Of a stretch of DNA of 39,345 nucleotides, positions 24,686 through 39,122 are shown piece after piece (the first letter of the stretch is position 1; every line of letters begins with the position of its first letter). The DNA lies in assembly GCA_963170165.1 (NCBI GenBank), contig CAUJGQ010000105.1:1-39345 (forward strand). The letters run 5' to 3'. The position numbers were made by a program, and so were the translations under genes. This stretch comes from Chloroflexota bacterium (GTDB lineage: Bacteria; Chloroflexota; Dehalococcoidia; CAUJGQ01). Under the pieces are notes generated by a model, which did no database searches, was not told where the DNA came from, and saw only the letters and a program-made list of their open reading frames with translations.

Positions 24686-25660
24686 GTGGGCTTTATCTGG
24701 GATACCCTCATCGTCAACCCCATGATCAACGTGATGATCGTGATGGAGCAGTTGCTGTTTGGCAGCTTCGGCCTCGCCATCGTCGCGTTTACGATTCTGG
24801 TGCGAGTGGCAACCCTGCCCCTCACCCTCCGCCAGCTCCACTCCTCCCGGCGGATGCAGGAGCTAACACCGCGCATCCAGGAGATCCAGAAGAAGTACAA
24901 AGACCCCAAGCGCCGCCAGGAAGAGACGATGAAGCTCTACCGGGAGGCGGGGGTCAACCCGCTCGGCTGCCTGGGGCCGATGATCATCCAGTTCCCGATC
25001 TGGTTCGCGCTGTACCGCGTGCTGACGTTGACCGTGGGCGGGACGCCGGAGACGGTGGCCGGGCTGTCGCACCGCCTGTACAACGTCAGCCTGATTCAGG
25101 ACGCCGTGCCACTGCCCACGACGTTCTTGTGGCTGGACCTGGGCCGCCAGGACACAACCTACATCCTGGTGATCCTGGTCGGTATCACCACCTGGCTGCA
25201 GACCAAGCTATCGATGGCCTCCGCCACCGCGCCCCAGAGCGCCCAGACCCAGCAGACCAACAAGATGCTGCTGTGGATGATGCCGGCGATGTTTGCCTGG
25301 TTCACGCTTACCGTCCCCAGCGGCCTGGCACTGTACTGGACGGTGACGAACATCATCGGTATCGTCATGAACTACTTCGTTTACGGCTGGCACCGCAAGG
25401 ACTGGCGCGACATCTTCCGCCCGGGCCAGCCCGCCACCGACGGCCCGCGCCCCACCCGCTCCGCCCCGGCGGCCGCTGCCCTGACAGACGGCGAGCGCGC
25501 CACCCCCACCAGCAAACGCCCCGCCCGCAGCGGCGGGTCAGACACGAGGACCAACGATGAACAGCCTGGAAGCAAGCGGAAAGACCGTCGAGGAGGCGGT
25601 GGACCGGGCACTCCGCCAGCTCGGTCTCGACGAGTCCCAGGTGGAGATCGAGATCCTTAG
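24686..25660 (+). CDS. yidC: membrane protein insertase YidC/Oxa1
   Basis: A 324-residue Oxa1-type insertase. The first hydrophobic segment has FTILVRVATLPLTLRQL with the groove arginine; a coiled cytoplasmic loop (ELTPRIQEIQKKYKD) follows; then NPLGCLGPMIIQFPIWFALYR, two further helices (YILVILVGITTWLQ; LLWMMPAMFAWFTLTVPSGLALYW, quoted in part) and a basic tail. No large periplasmic domain, as in Gram-positive-type YidC. GTG 24686. The basic tail overlaps jag by 104 bases in another frame. Confidence 0.95.
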   Translation: MGFIWDTLIVNPMINVMIVMEQLLFGSFGLAIVAFTILVRVATLPLTLRQLHSSRRMQELTPRIQEIQKKYKDPKRRQEETMKLYREAGVNPLGCLGPMIIQFPIWFALYRVLTLTVGGTPETVAGLSHRLYNVSLIQDAVPLPTTFLWLDLGRQDTTYILVILVGITTWLQTKLSMASATAPQSAQTQQTNKMLLWMMPAMFAWFTLTVPSGLALYWTVTNIIGIVMNYFVYGWHRKDWRDIFRPGQPATDGPRPTRSAPAAAALTDGERATPTSKRPARSGGSDTRTNDEQPGSKRKDRRGGGGPGTPPARSRRVPGGDRDP

Positions 25661-26333
25661 CCAGGGCCGGGCCGGCATCCTTGGCTTCGGCGGTGAGCCC
25701 GCCCGTGTGCGCGTCCATCCCATCGACACCGGTCCCCAGCCCGGCAATATCCGCGAGGAACCCGAGCCGGAGGATGAGGACGGCGAGGAGGACGACGAGC
25801 CCCAGCCGGCCGCCATCCGCCGCGTCCACCGCGCCGAACGTGGTCCTCGTCCGGACAGCGACGCTGTGACGACCGCTGCCGTGGACATCGTCGAAGACCT
25901 GCTCGACATCCTCGATATCGATGCCGACGTCAATCCGCGCCCGCCGGTTACCCCCGGCGACGGCGCCGGCATGGTCAGCGCCGTGATCGACATCGAGGGC
26001 GATGACCTCGGCCTGCTCATCGGCCGCCGCGGTGAAACGCTCGCATCCTTCCAGTACGTCATCAACCTGATGCTCGCCCGCAAGCTGCACAACAAGGCGC
26101 TGGTCGGCATCGATGTCGGCGGCTACCGGCGACGGCGCGAGGAGTCGCTGCGCAACCTCGCCGGGCGCATGGCCGAGCGCGTGCGCATGACCGGCCAGTC
26201 CGTCACGCTCGAGCCCATGCCCCCCAACGAGCGCCGCATCATTCACATTGCCCTGTCCGAGAGCCCCCACGTCGTCACCGTCTCCATCGGCGAAGGCGAC
26301 GCCCGCAAAGTGGCGATCACGCCGCGACGGTAA
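25557..26333 (+). CDS. jag: Jag (SpoIIIJ-associated) RNA-binding protein
   Basis: A 258-residue protein with three domains: Jag_N (about 1-52, ASGKTVEEAVDRALRQLG and GRAGILGFG), an acidic linker, a KH domain (about 130-190, LLIGRRGETLASFQYVIN) and an R3H domain (about 195-255, PMPPNERRIIHIALSE). Jag/KhpB-type proteins bind RNA and affect cell wall synthesis, and jag is almost always beside yidC. GAGGA precedes ATG 25557. Starts inside the yidC 3' end. Confidence 0.95.
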   Translation: MNSLEASGKTVEEAVDRALRQLGLDESQVEIEILSQGRAGILGFGGEPARVRVHPIDTGPQPGNIREEPEPEDEDGEEDDEPQPAAIRRVHRAERGPRPDSDAVTTAAVDIVEDLLDILDIDADVNPRPPVTPGDGAGMVSAVIDIEGDDLGLLIGRRGETLASFQYVINLMLARKLHNKALVGIDVGGYRRRREESLRNLAGRMAERVRMTGQSVTLEPMPPNERRIIHIALSESPHVVTVSIGEGDARKVAITPRR

Positions 26334-26406
26334 ACCGGCAACGGGCAGCACAAGAGGACCGCAGATCGCAGCAGAACCACGCTCCACACACCACCCGCCC
26401 GCCCGG

Positions 26407-27249
26407 ATGGCGGATGCTGCTCTCCCCGACTTCGTCATCGCCGGCAATGTGGCGCGGGATATCGTGCCGCAGCCGCCGGGGTGGCGGGCCGGCGGGGCCG
26501 CCGTCTACGCGGCGGCGATGGCGCGCGGGCTGGGACGCCGCGTCGGGGTGGTGACCGCCGCGACGGCAGCGGCCGCACGTGCCGGGTTGCCCGCGCCGAT
26601 CCTCGTCGCCCGCCATCCCGCCGCCGCAGATGTCTCCTTCGAAAACCACTACGACGCGGACGGCCACCGCACACAGATCCTACGCGCCACCGGCGAGCCG
26701 GTTCCCCCAGAGACGGTGCCCGATGCCTGGCGGGACGTGCCGGTAGTGCTGCTGGGTGCGGTCTACCACGAGATCACGCCCGTCCTGGCCACGCGCTTTT
26801 CCGGCCGCATCGGGCTGTGCGCCCAGGGCTTCCTGCGCCGGGCCGATGCGACCGGTCGGGTGTGGCCGCTTGTCCCACAGCAGTGGGACGCTGCGCCGCT
26901 GCTGGCACGGGTGCAGGTGATGTTCTGCTCCGAGGAGGATCTCGGCGGAGCGGCGCCCCCGGCCGCATGGGTGGCACGCGTCCCGGTGCTGGCCGTCACC
27001 CGTGGCCGCGCCGGCGTGTGGATCTACGCCGGCGGGGAGCGGCGGCTGATCCCTGCCTACCCCGCGCGTGAGGTTGATCCCACCGGCGCGGGCGATGCCT
27101 TCGCCGCCGCCTTCCTCATCGCCCAGGACGAAGGTCACGACCCCTGGCAGGCCGCCCGCTTCGCTGCCGCCGCCGCCGCCCTCACCGTCGAACACCCCGG
27201 CCCCTACACCCCCACCCGTGCCGGCATCACGGCGCAGACGCAGCAATAG
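26407..27249 (+). CDS. PfkB-family sugar kinase-like protein
   Basis: A 280-residue ribokinase-like protein: FVIAGNVARDIV and GGAAVYAAAMARGLG at the start, ADVSFENHY, and the C-terminal signature DPTGAGDAFAAAF with its catalytic Asp and anion hole. A short lid is expected. Substrate unknown, perhaps a sugar or nucleoside. ATG 26407 has no obvious ribosome site; the longer frame begins inside jag and is not convincing. Its place between jag and parA is unusual, and it may be a later insertion in the block. Confidence 0.88.
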   Translation: MADAALPDFVIAGNVARDIVPQPPGWRAGGAAVYAAAMARGLGRRVGVVTAATAAAARAGLPAPILVARHPAAADVSFENHYDADGHRTQILRATGEPVPPETVPDAWRDVPVVLLGAVYHEITPVLATRFSGRIGLCAQGFLRRADATGRVWPLVPQQWDAAPLLARVQVMFCSEEDLGGAAPPAAWVARVPVLAVTRGRAGVWIYAGGERRLIPAYPAREVDPTGAGDAFAAAFLIAQDEGHDPWQAARFAAAAAALTVEHPGPYTPTRAGITAQTQQ

Positions 27250-27275
27250 GGAACAACCACCCCTCCCCGACAGCC

Positions 27276-27336
27276 GCCCCCCTGCGAGGGGGCGGGCGCT
27301 GAGGTGCGTCCGGGGCGGCGGGCTCGCCCCTCGCAG
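27276..27336. repeat. inverted repeat before parA
   Basis: CTGCGAGGGGGCG at 27282-27294 is inversely repeated as CGCCCCTCGCAG at 27325-27336 (one extra G), and the left arm alone also folds as CGCCCCC/GGGGGCG. Possible terminator of the yidC-jag-kinase transcript or insulating structure for parA. Confidence 0.5.
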
Positions 27337-27359
27337 CGCGCAGGGGGAACCCTGGCTCC

Positions 27360-27387
27360 ATTCCCTATCCCCTATGCCCTCCGCCCG
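27360..27387. repeat. degenerate 7-base repeats upstream of parA
   Basis: Units ATTCCCT, ATCCCCT and ATGCCCT follow in phase, then CCGCCCG. Same family as the tracts at 12291 and 20550. They lie 51 bases before the parA start. Confidence 0.6.
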
Positions 27388-27438
27388 GTAGAGTGAAGGG
27401 GCAGCCGCGCGGTCGCAGCGGCCACCCCCGAGGTCCTC

Positions 27439-28224
27439 ATGCCCGTGATCGCCTTTGCCAATCAGAAAGGTGGCGTGGGCAAGACCACCACCGTCATCAA
27501 CCTGGGTGCGGCGCTGGCGGCACGGGGCCAGCGCGTGTTGCTGCTGGACCTGGATGCTCAGGCCAATGCCACCAGCGGCCTGGGGCTGCGCGCGCCGGAG
27601 GGACGGTCCAGCTACGATGTGCTGCTGGGCGAGGTGCCCGCCGCGCGCGCGGTGCTGCCCGCCGGGGTCGACAATCTGTGGCTGATCCCCTCCTCGCCCG
27701 CCCTGTCCGGCGCTGATGTTGAGCTGGTGCCGCGCGAGCGGCGCGAGTACGTCCTCCGCCGGGCGCTGCGCGAGGGTGAGGCGCCCCTGTCCGCCGCCTA
27801 CGATGCCCTGCTGATCGACTGCCCGCCGTCCCTGGGGCTGCTGACGCTCAACGCGCTGACCGCGGCAGACGAGGTGATTATCCCCGTCCAGTGTGAGTAC
27901 CTGGCGCTGGAAGGGTTGGGCCAGCTGGCGCGCACGCTGGAGCTGGTGCGGCGGGAACTCAATCCCGCGTTGCGGCTGCGCGGTCTGGTGATGACCATGT
28001 ACGATGCGCGCACCAACCTGGCGGCGCAGGTGGTGGAGGAGGTGCGGCGCCACTTTCCCCAGACCTTCCAGACGGTGATTCCCCGCTCCGTCCGCCTCAG
28101 CGAAGCGCCCAGTCACGGGCTGACGATCTTCGCCTATGATGGAGCTTCGCGCGGGGCGCAGGCATACGCGGCGCTGGCCGATGAGCTGCTGGCCCGCCCG
28201 TCCGCGCCGCGGCGGCCGAGGTGA
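27439..28224 (+). CDS. parA: chromosome partitioning ATPase ParA/Soj
   Basis: A 261-residue deviant Walker ATPase: KGGVGKTTT (Walker A with signature Lys), LLLDLDAQANATSGLG, DALLIDCPPSLGLLTLNAL (Walker B) and a C-terminal basic DNA-contact region. It binds DNA as an ATP dimer and is released by ParB, moving origins apart. GAGG precedes ATG 27439. parB starts 4 bases after its stop. Confidence 0.96.
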   Translation: MPVIAFANQKGGVGKTTTVINLGAALAARGQRVLLLDLDAQANATSGLGLRAPEGRSSYDVLLGEVPAARAVLPAGVDNLWLIPSSPALSGADVELVPRERREYVLRRALREGEAPLSAAYDALLIDCPPSLGLLTLNALTAADEVIIPVQCEYLALEGLGQLARTLELVRRELNPALRLRGLVMTMYDARTNLAAQVVEEVRRHFPQTFQTVIPRSVRLSEAPSHGLTIFAYDGASRGAQAYAALADELLARPSAPRRPR

Positions 28225-28228
28225 CCCC

Positions 28229-29128
28229 ATGAAATCCGGAGCATCCCGCGGGCTGGGCCGCGGCCTCGAAGCGCTCATCCCCCGCGGCGGCGGCGTCGAT
28301 GAGGTCGATATCGACCTGATCGCCCCCAACCCCGAGCAGCCGCGCGCGCACTTTGATGACGCCGCACTGGACGAGCTGGCGGACAGCGTCCGCGAGCACG
28401 GCATCCTCCAGCCGCTGATCGTCTCCCGCCTGGTGACCGAGAACGGCGCCGTCAGCTACCAGTTGGTGGCCGGAGAACGGCGGTTGCTGGCCGCCCGCCG
28501 CGCGGGCCTGGCCCGCGTCCCCGTCGTCGTGCGCGAGACGACGCCGCGCGACCGGCTGGAACTGGCGCTAGTGGAGAACCTGCAACGCGCCGACCTGGGC
28601 CCGCTGGAGACCGCCCAGGCCTACCGGCGGCTGGCGGATGAGTTCGGCCTGTCCCAGGAGGAGATCGGCCGGCGGGCGGGTAAGAGCCGCGTGGCCGTAA
28701 CCAATGTCCTGCGCCTGCTGGCGCTGCCTGATCCGGTGAAAGCCGGGCTGGCCGCCGGCGCCATCACGGAGGGGCACGCCCGTGCCCTGCTCGGCCTGCC
28801 GGATGCCGCCGCCCAGACCCGGCTGTTCGGCGAAGTCGCCGCCCAGGGGCTGACCGTACGCGAAACCGAAGAGCTGGTCCGCCGCCTGCGCGAGGGTCCC
28901 GCCGCGCCCGCGCCTGCCCCTGCCCCCGCCGCCAAGCCCTCCGCCCAGCGCGAGCGCCGCACCGACCCCGACCTGGAAGCAATCGAGGAACGCCTGCGGG
29001 CCGCACTCGGCACCCAGGTGCGGCTGGAGCGCTCGCGCAAGGGCGGCCGCATCGTCATCCAGTTCTACGGAGACGAAGACCTGGAAGGGCTGATTCTGCG
29101 GCTGCTCGGCAGCGACACCTGGGAGTAG
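28229..29128 (+). CDS. parB: chromosome partitioning CTPase ParB/Spo0J
   Basis: A 299-residue centromere-binding protein. The N-terminal ParA-stimulating peptide is basic (SRGLGRGLEALIPR). The CTP-binding domain has NPEQPR, GILQPLIV, VAGERRLLAARRAG (GERR) and ENLQRADLGPLE (ENLQR). The HTH (LSQEEIGRRAGKSRVAVTNVLRLL) reads parS. A Pro/Ala linker leads to the C-terminal dimer domain. The parS-like site at 23440 is its expected target. Confidence 0.97.
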   Translation: MKSGASRGLGRGLEALIPRGGGVDEVDIDLIAPNPEQPRAHFDDAALDELADSVREHGILQPLIVSRLVTENGAVSYQLVAGERRLLAARRAGLARVPVVVRETTPRDRLELALVENLQRADLGPLETAQAYRRLADEFGLSQEEIGRRAGKSRVAVTNVLRLLALPDPVKAGLAAGAITEGHARALLGLPDAAAQTRLFGEVAAQGLTVRETEELVRRLREGPAAPAPAPAPAAKPSAQRERRTDPDLEAIEERLRAALGTQVRLERSRKGGRIVIQFYGDEDLEGLILRLLGSDTWE

Positions 29129-29838: not shown

Positions 29839-29891
29839 TATATTGCCGTATCCTCCACCTCATGCACCTGGAGGGAGGGGAGCAGGCACGG

Positions 29892-31541
29892 ATGGTGACG
29901 GAGCAGGCAACGACGATCTATACCTGTCCAGACGGCACACCGTTTCCGGTGGTGTGGCCGGAGCCGGAGAACGAGCAGCACGGCTGGCGCTGGGATCACC
30001 TTCACGTGCCGCTGCCGCTGACGCCGCTGGCCCAACGCTTCTCGGACAGTAAGCGGCAGGGCTTCGGCCAGGCGATGGACGCCATGGGCGCCCCCGCCGG
30101 TCCGGCGCGCGTTATCGCCAACGGCTTCACGTACATCCGGCAGCAGCCGTTTGCTGATGACCCGGCCATGCGCGAGCACATGCGGACCCGAGACCTCGCC
30201 CGGCGCATGGACCGCATCGGCGCATTATGGGAGGAGCAGTACCGCCCGGAGGTGGAGGCGCTCACCCACGCCCTGCGCTCCTACGCGGGCCTCAGCCTGC
30301 GCGCCCTGGTGGAGCGCCTGGAACAGCTCCACGCCATCGACCGCCGGCTGGGCGAGCTGCATATGCTGGTGATGGGGCCAACCCAGCCCGGCTATCTCCG
30401 CCTGGTGGAGTTCTGCGGGCCGCTCTACGGCGCTGAGGCAGAGCAGGTGGCCGCCGAGCTGGCCCGCGGCATGCCCAACCGTTCGCTGGATTCCGCACAG
30501 GGACTGTGGGACCTCTCGCGCGAGGCGGCCGCCCGCCCGGCGGTTGCGGCGGTGTTTCGCGATGCGCCGGTGGCCGAGCTGGCAGCCCGCATCCCAACGG
30601 TCGCCGGCGGGGCGACCTGGTGGACGCTGTTCCAGGACTACCTCGAGGTATTCGGCCTGCGGACCGAGTCGTTCACCGAGCTGGTGCTACCCTCCTGGCA
30701 GGAGCAGCCACGTTTCCCGCTTCTCACTATCCGCGCCTATCTGGCCACGCCGGAGGAGAGCAGCCCGGAAGCTCTGCACGCCGCCAGCGCCCGCGTCCGC
30801 GAGCGGCGGCAGGCCGAGGTGGAAGACCGGCTGGCAGGCGACCCGGAGCGGCTGGCCCGCTTCCGCGCCATCCTGCCCGTAGCCCAACAGCGTACCGTGC
30901 TGATCGAGGACCACAACTTCTATATCGATCAGCAGGGACCGGCCTCGCTGCGGCTGGTGCTGCTGGCGATGGGCGGCGCACTGGCCAGGCAGGGCAGCCT
31001 GGTCGCGGCGGAGGACATCTTCTACGTAACCGAGGAGGAGATCCGCAAGGCCGCGGCCGTGCCCGAGACGGACCTACGCCTCATCGCCGCCGCCCGCCGC
31101 ACCGAGCGGGAACGCTGGCTGCACGTGATCCCGCCCGCGTTTATCGGCAACGGCACGGTGGAGACCAATCCCTTCACGCGCGGCTTCCTCGGACCGGATG
31201 AAGGCTCGGAGCCGGAGCCGGGGGCCGTGGGCGGGGTGGCCGCCAGCCCCGGTGTGCGTCGCGGCCGGGCGCGCCTGATCCTCACGCTGGAGGAGGCGGA
31301 GAAGCTGGAGCCGGGCGACATCCTCGTGACCTACGCCACCGCCCCGCCGTGGACGCCGCTGTTTGCCGTGGCCGGCGCCGTGGTGACGGACGCCGGCGGG
31401 ATGCTGTCTCACTGCGCCGTCGTGGCGCGCGAGTACGGCATCCCCGCCGTCACCGGCACCCGCACCGCCACCCGCCGCATCCCCGACGGCGCCCTGATCA
31501 CTGTCGATGGCACCCGCGGCCTGGTGCGCGTGGAAGCCTGA
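29892..31541 (+). CDS. PEP-utilising enzyme mobile (His) domain protein lacking ATP-grasp
   Basis: A 549-residue protein. The C-terminal 80 residues are the swivelling phosphohistidine domain of PEP synthase, pyruvate phosphate dikinase and rifampicin phosphotransferase: GGVAASPGVRRGRARLI, DILVTYATAPPWTP, TDAGGMLSHCAVVAREYGIP (catalytic His in LSHCA) and GALITVDGTRGLV. The rest is helical, like the substrate-binding middle part of rifampicin phosphotransferases. No ATP-grasp domain exists here or nearby, so phosphorylation must use a separate partner, as in phenylphosphate synthase. ATG 29892 follows GGGGAG at 9 bases. Confidence 0.88.
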   Translation: MVTEQATTIYTCPDGTPFPVVWPEPENEQHGWRWDHLHVPLPLTPLAQRFSDSKRQGFGQAMDAMGAPAGPARVIANGFTYIRQQPFADDPAMREHMRTRDLARRMDRIGALWEEQYRPEVEALTHALRSYAGLSLRALVERLEQLHAIDRRLGELHMLVMGPTQPGYLRLVEFCGPLYGAEAEQVAAELARGMPNRSLDSAQGLWDLSREAAARPAVAAVFRDAPVAELAARIPTVAGGATWWTLFQDYLEVFGLRTESFTELVLPSWQEQPRFPLLTIRAYLATPEESSPEALHAASARVRERRQAEVEDRLAGDPERLARFRAILPVAQQRTVLIEDHNFYIDQQGPASLRLVLLAMGGALARQGSLVAAEDIFYVTEEEIRKAAAVPETDLRLIAAARRTERERWLHVIPPAFIGNGTVETNPFTRGFLGPDEGSEPEPGAVGGVAASPGVRRGRARLILTLEEAEKLEPGDILVTYATAPPWTPLFAVAGAVVTDAGGMLSHCAVVAREYGIPAVTGTRTATRRIPDGALITVDGTRGLVRVEA

Positions 31542-38309: not shown

Positions 38310-39122
38310 ATGCCCGAGCCTGTCATCCCCCTGGATGCCATCGCGGATACTCCGGCTGAGCCGGAGGCGTATGACTGGAATAGTATCGTCAACGACCTCA
38401 ACCAGTTACTGCGGCTGCGGGTAACGCCCATCGGCCTGCAACGGTTCCGCACCGAGGAGGAGATGGCGGCCATCCCCCGGCTGCGCCGCCCGACGGCGGT
38501 CCACACCTTTGACCAGATTGTGGCGCAGGCAGCGCGGCTGGGCTGGACGGTGGGGGCAACGGCCAAAGACCTGTCCGGCACGCAGTGCACCGCCGTCATC
38601 GGCCTCACCCCGCGCGACGAGGACTGGCTCTCCGGTAAGCGGATGGCCGGGGTGTGGTTCGAGACGCTGGAGGATTCGGCGGCGCACCAGGCAGCGATGG
38701 ACCTGGCCGAGCACGGCCGGTACGAAGCGATCGTCGCCTCACCCCTGACCAGCGGGCGGCTACCCCGGCCGGATGTGTGCCTGATCTACGGCACGCCGGG
38801 GCAGATGATCATCTTCATCAACGGCTTGCAGTGGAGCGGCTATCGCAAGTTTCAGTTCAGCGTGGTGGGCGAATCCTCCTGCGCCGACTCCTGGGGCCGG
38901 GCGCTCGCGACGGGCGAACCCAGCCTGTCTATTCCCTGCTTCGCCGAGCGGCGCTATGGCGGCGTGCTCGACGATGAGCTGTTGATGGCACTGCCGCCGC
39001 GCTTTATCCCCAAGGCGGTCGCCGGTATGGCCCGCCTGGCCGCCAACGGCCTGCGCTACCCTATCCCCCAGTACGGCATCCAGTCCGACGCCCGCGCCGG
39101 CCTGGGCCGCAGCTACGGGTAG
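38310..39122 (+). CDS. DUF169 family protein
   Basis: A 270-residue protein resembling DUF169: LNQLLRLRVTPIGLQRFRTEEEM at the start (key part LLRLRVTPIGLQRF), FDQIVAQAARLGWTVGATAKDLSG, an apparent C-centred motif TQCTAVIGL, DVCLIYGTPGQMIIFINGLQW and SSCADSWGRAL. Function is unknown, although related proteins sit near metal or CoA enzymes. AGGAAGGGAG precedes ATG 38310. Confidence 0.8.
   Translation: MPEPVIPLDAIADTPAEPEAYDWNSIVNDLNQLLRLRVTPIGLQRFRTEEEMAAIPRLRRPTAVHTFDQIVAQAARLGWTVGATAKDLSGTQCTAVIGLTPRDEDWLSGKRMAGVWFETLEDSAAHQAAMDLAEHGRYEAIVASPLTSGRLPRPDVCLIYGTPGQMIIFINGLQWSGYRKFQFSVVGESSCADSWGRALATGEPSLSIPCFAERRYGGVLDDELLMALPPRFIPKAVAGMARLAANGLRYPIPQYGIQSDARAGLGRSYG

Follow-up and report, generated by a model that had tools for sequence, protein, structure and literature searches.

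Which enzyme charges a phosphohistidine domain whose own chain has no ATP-binding domain? The question is raised by a gene at 29892–31541 of the window, by which we mean the whole analysed stretch of 39,345 nucleotides from a Chloroflexota bacterium. A sequence-only reading of this DNA had seen a substrate-type part and a phosphohistidine domain with no ATP-grasp, and had suggested, by analogy with phenylphosphate synthase, that an ATP-grasp partner may be encoded elsewhere in the genome. Throughout, G000 denotes the window's own genome and C105 the window contig, and a "half" is a substrate domain plus a swivel His domain without an ATP-grasp. We propose, at a probability of roughly 0.6, that the window protein is the alpha subunit of a two-component small-molecule dikinase, and that one ATP-grasp protein, encoded on contig C32, is common in trans to many such alpha subunits.

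Domain content and fold of the window protein

The features of the gene, all on the forward strand, are as follows.

29892..31541, + strand: alpha-type ("half") subunit of a putative two-component RPH-like dikinase, 549 aa, stop included (open reading frame; AlphaFold match to RPH)
29870..29882, + strand: purine-rich, RBS-like run GGAGGGAGGGGAG before the ATG at 29892 (read from the sequence)
29892..31229, + strand: predicted substrate-binding domain (RIF-binding-domain-like), aa 1–446 (alignment and AlphaFold match to RPH)
30906..30932, + strand: motif E339-D-H341-N-F-Y-I-D346-Q347, at the position of the RPH Arg-Glu-x-x-Lys set (RPH alignment; conservation)
31230..31538, + strand: phosphohistidine swivel domain (PF00391), aa 447–549 (Pfam; AlphaFold model against RPH)
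31386..31412, + strand: motif T499-D-A-G-G-M-L-S-H507, of the form T/SxxGGxxxH (sequence; alignments)

An alternative upstream ATG at 29862 would add 10 residues and give a 559-aa form; since the purine-rich run GGAGGGAGGGGAG at 29870–29882 precedes the ATG at 29892, the latter start, also chosen by the sequence-only reading, is favoured. In the Pfam search only PEP-utilizers (PF00391) was above cut-off (E 4.9e-24, aa 483–553 of the 559-aa form); neither PPDK_N nor PEP-utilizers_C, the pyruvate/PEP-binding domain of PEP synthase and PPDK, was detected, and one match to CHASE3 fell below threshold at 13 bits. Searched against PDB sequences with phmmer, aa 194–557 align with residues 508–865 of RPH-Lm (E 4e-37). 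The AlphaFold model (mean pLDDT 92.6, pTM 0.92, alignment depth 40 sequences) has RPH for all of its best six PDB structure matches, the match to 5FBT covering RPH residues 316–867 (489 residues aligned, Z 30.3, rmsd 3.3). As modelled, the window protein is the RIF-binding and swivel domains of RPH without the ATP-grasp domain, and the domain content first read from the letters is confirmed by Pfam, phmmer and the structure match alike. Among the NCBIfam models listed, none was above its curated cut-off: the Rifampin phosphotransferase model NF041857 scored 153.4 bits against a cut-off of 999 and the PRK08296.1-5 model NF006153 scored 171 bits against 578, a placement that is RPH/PEP-synthase-like.

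The absence of the ATP-grasp domain is real: the reading frame has no break, and three orthologs (43–46% identity) are halves as well; truncation or an assembly artefact as its cause was rejected on these grounds. The window protein also has what is described for the alpha subunits HpeH, CreH and PpsA, namely RIF-like and swivel domains, a His within T/SxxGGxxxH and a chain without an ATP-grasp. The available text of PMC12167813 gives this motif for HpeH and its homologs, and TDAGGMLSH fits it.

The catalytic His507 (codon CAC, 31410–31412) is invariant in several alignments of halves. Among 131 half-like open reading frames, some of which may be terminal pieces of fused proteins interrupted at contig boundaries, it is kept in all 128 that reach its column, the other three being gapped there; loss of this residue in relatives, named beforehand as evidence against a split phosphotransferase, did not occur. 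The phosphate-binding set of RPH (Arg-Glu-x-x-Lys, residues as given in the accessible part of PMC4844700) is not kept in the window protein, where I338-E339-D-H-N342 (Ile-Glu-Asp-His-Asn) stands instead. The Arg of this set is found in 28 of 32 fused proteins and the Glu in 32 of 32; the half-like frames have the Glu in 106 of 131 and a His two places on in 92 of 131, like the EDH of the window protein.

A lone ATP-grasp protein in the same genome

A profile search of the contigs found PPDK_N in three genes of G000: a full PPDK on C67, a short PPDK on C28 (ATP-grasp and His domain, without a PEP-binding domain) and, on C32, a protein with an ATP-grasp only. This last protein (C32:16430–17395, 321 aa, 302 bits to PPDK_N) stops at the end of the domain, without a His domain; its gene is single in G000 and lies on a different contig from the window gene, outside the shared gene cluster that is usual in the described cases and is not a defining feature of them. 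The check proposed by the sequence-only reading, a search of the genome for a PPDK_N protein without a His domain, thus returned one protein; the idea of a partner elsewhere is supported, with the 321-aa protein as the candidate, and the contrary outcome, that no such partner exists, did not occur.

In an alignment of six lone ATP-grasps the C32 protein retains the invariant residues, K20, R117, E301, Q313 and R315 among others. It matches HpeI (PDB 9GOJ) at E 2.1e-47, and in the PDB ranking two PEP synthases (E 7e-64 and 4e-52) stand above HpeI and RPH below it. The lone ATP-grasps of G000, G001, G236, G237 and G242 form one clade (SH-aLRT 95). Among five lone ATP-grasps compared for gene context, no neighbour genes are conserved except one M20 peptidase gene in G236 and G237.

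Eight halves in one genome

PF00391 was found by profile search at ten places in G000, corresponding to eight halves, the full PPDK and the short PPDK. Seven of the halves are intact (the window gene on C105 and those on C37, C9, C112, C116, C78 and C10), while the eighth, which adjoins the short PPDK, is split in the assembly between one end of C85 and one end of C28; these ends, compared and not joined, have at least 100 identical bases in common. C32 carries none of the eight. Six other halves are 28–38% identical to the window half, and in a quick 71-protein tree from hand-chosen loci (support here, as in the other trees, by SH-aLRT only) the eight fall in eight separate places, most of them with relatives in other genomes. 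Because of these separate positions the halves appear, from their sequences, to be old and distinct lines, not decaying copies.

Two other sources of the extra halves were considered. Recent gene duplication was rejected, as eight label changes were needed on the tree for eight halves. Contamination was not supported: the tetranucleotide correlation with the window is at least 0.974 for 10 other stretches of the same genome, against at most 0.940 for seven stretches of other genomes, and contamination is made less likely by the recurrence of the one-ATP-grasp, many-halves pattern in G001. The half on C78 (L020 3949–9718) lies among CoA-transferase III, methyltransferase and aldehyde:ferredoxin oxidoreductase genes, surroundings that may hint at the substrate of that half and are suggestive only.

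Recurrence in other genomes

Full PF00391 counts cover 41 relatives and 33 further genomes, and full PF01326 counts the 41 relatives and 40 further; in a phylum sample of 201 genomes, alignment searches scored the best 8 and the best 11 candidates per genome. Frame lengths in the profile-count tables are measured between stop codons.

Eight further genomes show the same imbalance, a single lone ATP-grasp facing three to seven halves (G001, G117, G232, G233, G236, G237, G239 and G242). G001, of the same family as G000, has five halves, one of them cut by a contig end, and two C-terminal fragments at contig ends; G117, from the phylum sample, has two halves and a third that is interrupted where its contig stops. 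The other six are among 12 genomes (G232–G243) reached through named relatives: in G232 the lone ATP-grasp is the sole PPDK_N protein and there are six PF00391 halves and one more cut at a contig end, G233 has at least five halves, G236 five (on other contigs than the ATP-grasp), G237 four confirmed halves and a fragment, G239 three and G242 four. Smaller sets were found in G238 (one lone ATP-grasp, two halves), G240 (one ATP-grasp open reading frame, two halves) and, in the phylum sample, G132 (one of each, unlinked), while G152 and G201 of that sample have two lone ATP-grasps and four halves each. In G235 and G243 there is one half each and in G241 there are two, and no lone ATP-grasp was found in these three by the PF01326 search.

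In two genomes the genes stand in a run on the same strand, ATP-grasp–half–half in G238 (L156) and, in G232 (L227), an ATP-grasp with three halves after it, of which the third is truncated where the contig stops. In G033, an assembly of four contigs, the open reading frame of the lone ATP-grasp (L278 1802–3109; stop-to-stop frame 658) ends with that domain, without a His domain, and the only half of this genome is some 460 kb away on the same contig. The first of the three tandem halves of L227 (3318–4968) is in two overlapping frames, perhaps through a frameshift or an assembly error. A half in G031 (L100 2253–5267) is extended at its N terminus by about 400 residues that have no match to the ATP-grasp profiles used, and open reading frames of 1833 and 993 aa in G241 (L279 2577–8078) and G242 (L280 1525–4506) match ATP-grasp weakly and the His domain not at all. 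Among 158 plasmid records searched by tblastn, one (Thermomicrobium) matched at least 80% of the window protein. On the Thermomicrobium roseum plasmid (L083 472–12817) a half and a lone ATP-grasp are in one gene run, together with PEP-hydrolase-family, cyclase, fumarylacetoacetate-hydrolase-family and xanthine-dehydrogenase-family genes.

The window gene groups with its three orthologs (L147, L148 and L149, located in G232, G233 and G234) at SH-aLRT 100. In G234 the lone ATP-grasp is the sole PPDK_N protein detected and the sole PF00391 protein is the window ortholog, on a different contig, so that this genome, whose completeness is not stated, offers the cleanest pairing by exclusion. Like G232, it has the lone ATP-grasp only, with no PPDK or short PPDK detected.

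Co-occurrence, exceptions and alternative partners

Among the 41 relatives, which were drawn without regard to halves, eight have both a lone ATP-grasp and halves (G000, G001, G002, G006, G017, G022, G031 and G033), five have halves only (G003, G005, G021, G023 and G036), none has a lone ATP-grasp only and 28 have neither. These hand-tallied counts give a Fisher p of 1.3e-5, uncorrected for relatedness and with G003 and G005 treated as half-bearing, or of 1.7e-6 if those two are scored half-free. Elsewhere, G125 has a lone ATP-grasp open reading frame of 440 aa (C48; L266 4055–5377) and no half found by PF00391, and G018 a broken ATP-grasp fragment and no halves. For the halves of at least nine genomes, no lone ATP-grasp and no linked short PPDK was found (G003, G005, G021, G023, G036, G054, G227, G235 and G241); G036 and G243 give identical matches, and in G003 and G023 the halves extend past the start of the contig and might be terminal parts of fused proteins. 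Absences of this kind are soft because most of the genomes are fragmented.

A single ATP-grasp among many halves need not serve them all. It might serve one or two, the rest, perhaps with the window's among them, having lost kinase activity or using an unrelated donor, a reading that we hold to be unlikely, if the least so of the alternatives. The described alpha/beta pairs, in one gene cluster and with congruent phylogenies (according to the available portion of PMC9618137), would accord with it, as would the nine or more genomes in which no charger was found. So would the swivel domains, which bear no mark of adaptation to a shared partner, their similarity within one genome not exceeding expectation (permutation p 0.54; 43 proteins, 800 pairs, 71 of them within-genome). 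Against this reading are the catalytic His present in every readable half-like frame, the halves in G000 that form separate old lines with relatives elsewhere, and G234, where no PF00391 protein other than the window ortholog was detected. Conservation of the swivel domains, both within and between genomes, is roughly double that of the substrate domains, and one docking surface common to all halves is possible.

Somewhat less probable again is that the half works without ATP, as a transphosphorylase swapping phosphate between small-molecule phosphates and alcohols via His507. The co-occurrence speaks against this, with a lone ATP-grasp in 8 of 13 half-bearing relatives and in 0 of 28 half-free ones, and so does G234, which has both single genes together. 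The reading draws on the same genomes without a detected charger and on two biochemical precedents, as described in the accessible text of the sources: HpeH on its own transfers phosphate from 4-phosphoacetophenone to acetovanillone (PMC12167813), and the alpha subunit of phenylphosphate synthase alone exchanges phenol (PMC6114531).

At least ten genomes of the phylum have a half without a lone ATP-grasp (G056, G065, G088, G142, G157, G165, G184, G198, G209 and G225), and a short PPDK shares the contig of the half in nine of these ten, all but G088. The short PPDK is directly beside a half on C26 of G001 (L090 5214–7424) and on C28 of G000 (L022 383–2575), where the protein has an ATP-grasp, a His domain and roughly 240 more residues that match no Pfam family, and it is one gene from a half on Rhodococcus pRZP2 (L085). 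We read half plus short PPDK, including these three cases, as a second partner architecture. That the half is itself charged by a PPDK-type enzyme, either the full PPDK of C67 or the short, VadK-like PPDK of C28, would fit these linkages and the autophosphorylation of VadK on its own His (PMC13400623, in the part available), but is the least probable of the alternatives, since G232 and G234, with window orthologs, have the lone ATP-grasp and no detected PPDK or short PPDK, and the short-PPDK-linked halves lie away from the window clade in a tree from which rows of L105, L141 and one of two of L139 were left out as partial or weak.

Gene context, lineage and possible acceptor

Flanked by parB and a convergent GGDEF-EAL gene, the window gene is just downstream of a run of yidC, jag, pfkB-like, parA and parB genes (24686–29128), a context that gives no hint of the substrate. 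The yidC/jag/parA/parB arrangement is usual near the replication origin. Among called open reading frames, no neighbour gene is common to the window gene and its orthologs. At 38310–39122 the window encodes a DUF169 (COG2043) protein.

A second quick tree from hand-chosen loci, which included fused and CreH-like proteins, is split at SH-aLRT 98. One branch contains all the fused proteins included and the G000 halves on C37, C112, C10 and C85; the other consists of split proteins only, namely the CreH-like protein, a half from Desulfatiglandales, that of T. roseum, the window half and the G000 halves on C9, C116 and C78. Within it the window protein branches with L274 (27% identity over 443 columns), which we take to be a CreH-like protein from a cre gene cluster. 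Because of this phylogeny, and because the described HpeH/CreH/PpsA/Pas-type kinases act on phenols or aniline (PMC12167813 and PMC7500099, as far as their available text goes), we weakly favour an aromatic hydroxyl over an antibiotic as the putative acceptor. The sequence-only reading had also allowed for an antibiotic, an option that loses favour as the window protein does not retain the Arg-Glu-x-x-Lys set of RPH and groups with split, CreH-like proteins.

Proposed mechanism

For the window protein as an alpha subunit served by the C32 ATP-grasp, we infer the chemistry by analogy with HpeHI, PpsAB and RPH. The C32 protein, as an HpeI-like beta subunit, would present ATP to the alpha subunit; the swivel His507 would attack the beta-phosphate of ATP, with loss of the gamma-phosphate; and the swivel domain would then turn back and pass the phosphate to a hydroxyl of the alpha subunit's small-molecule ligand. 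The one ATP-grasp would probably act in trans for eight alpha subunits in G000, or for seven if the half adjoining the short PPDK uses that enzyme, and the same sharing would hold in other genomes of the phylum. Such sharing would be mechanically easy, because HpeH does not stay bound to HpeI in a stable complex and can by itself transfer phosphate from one phenol to another (in the accessible part of PMC12167813).

More tentatively, and at somewhat less than even odds, we suggest an organization resembling the PTS, in which one soluble ATP-grasp is the energy input for up to eight anciently diverged and scattered substrate subunits, with the short PPDK (VadK-like) as an alternative hub. If so, a new small-molecule kinase could be gained by acquiring a substrate subunit alone, and VadK-type enzymes, if the short PPDK is a second hub, would get a class of acceptors. 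It would also explain orphan "PEP-utilizing enzyme" genes annotated without a function. The two-component dikinases described so far in the available text of PMC12167813 and PMC9618137 are dedicated pairs for single aromatic pathways, and no description of a shared ATP-grasp subunit was found in the open-access literature searched; an ATP-grasp with many acceptors would represent a new wiring of small-molecule phosphorylation with a known type of enzyme.

Comparison with known systems

The closest likeness is to HpeHI, CreHI and PpsAB (PMC12167813 and PMC9618137, from the portions available), which similarly have a separate ATP-grasp subunit and an alpha subunit made of a RIF-binding-like domain and a swivel His domain with T/SxxGGxxxH. 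In those systems the alpha and beta genes are in one cluster, usually side by side, with one beta per alpha; by contrast, the system proposed here has a single beta on another contig and eight alphas, and the window gene stands among yidC, jag, parA and parB, not in a catabolic cluster. RPH (5FBT/5HV1) resembles the window protein in the fold of its substrate and swivel parts and, by analogy, in a swivel-His mechanism, but only in RPH is the ATP-grasp fused, and its Arg-Glu-x-x-Lys set is replaced in the window protein by Ile-Glu-Asp-His-Asn.

The short PPDK VadK (Rv1127c) is likewise an ATP-grasp enzyme without a PEP-binding domain, and related genes are near halves in several genomes; unlike the lone ATP-grasp it has a His domain of its own, and the window gene is not linked to a short PPDK. 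VadK of Mycobacterium tuberculosis is reported to bind PrpC and PrpD, and in the available text of PMC13400623 no small-molecule acceptor is named for it. The bacterial PTS (enzyme I/HPr and many enzymes II) differs in that its donor is PEP, where ATP is the probable donor here, and in its membrane transport component, of which none was seen here; what it offers, as an analogy only, is one general charger for many substrate-specific acceptors, in a system whose enzyme I carries a swivel domain homologous to that of the window protein.
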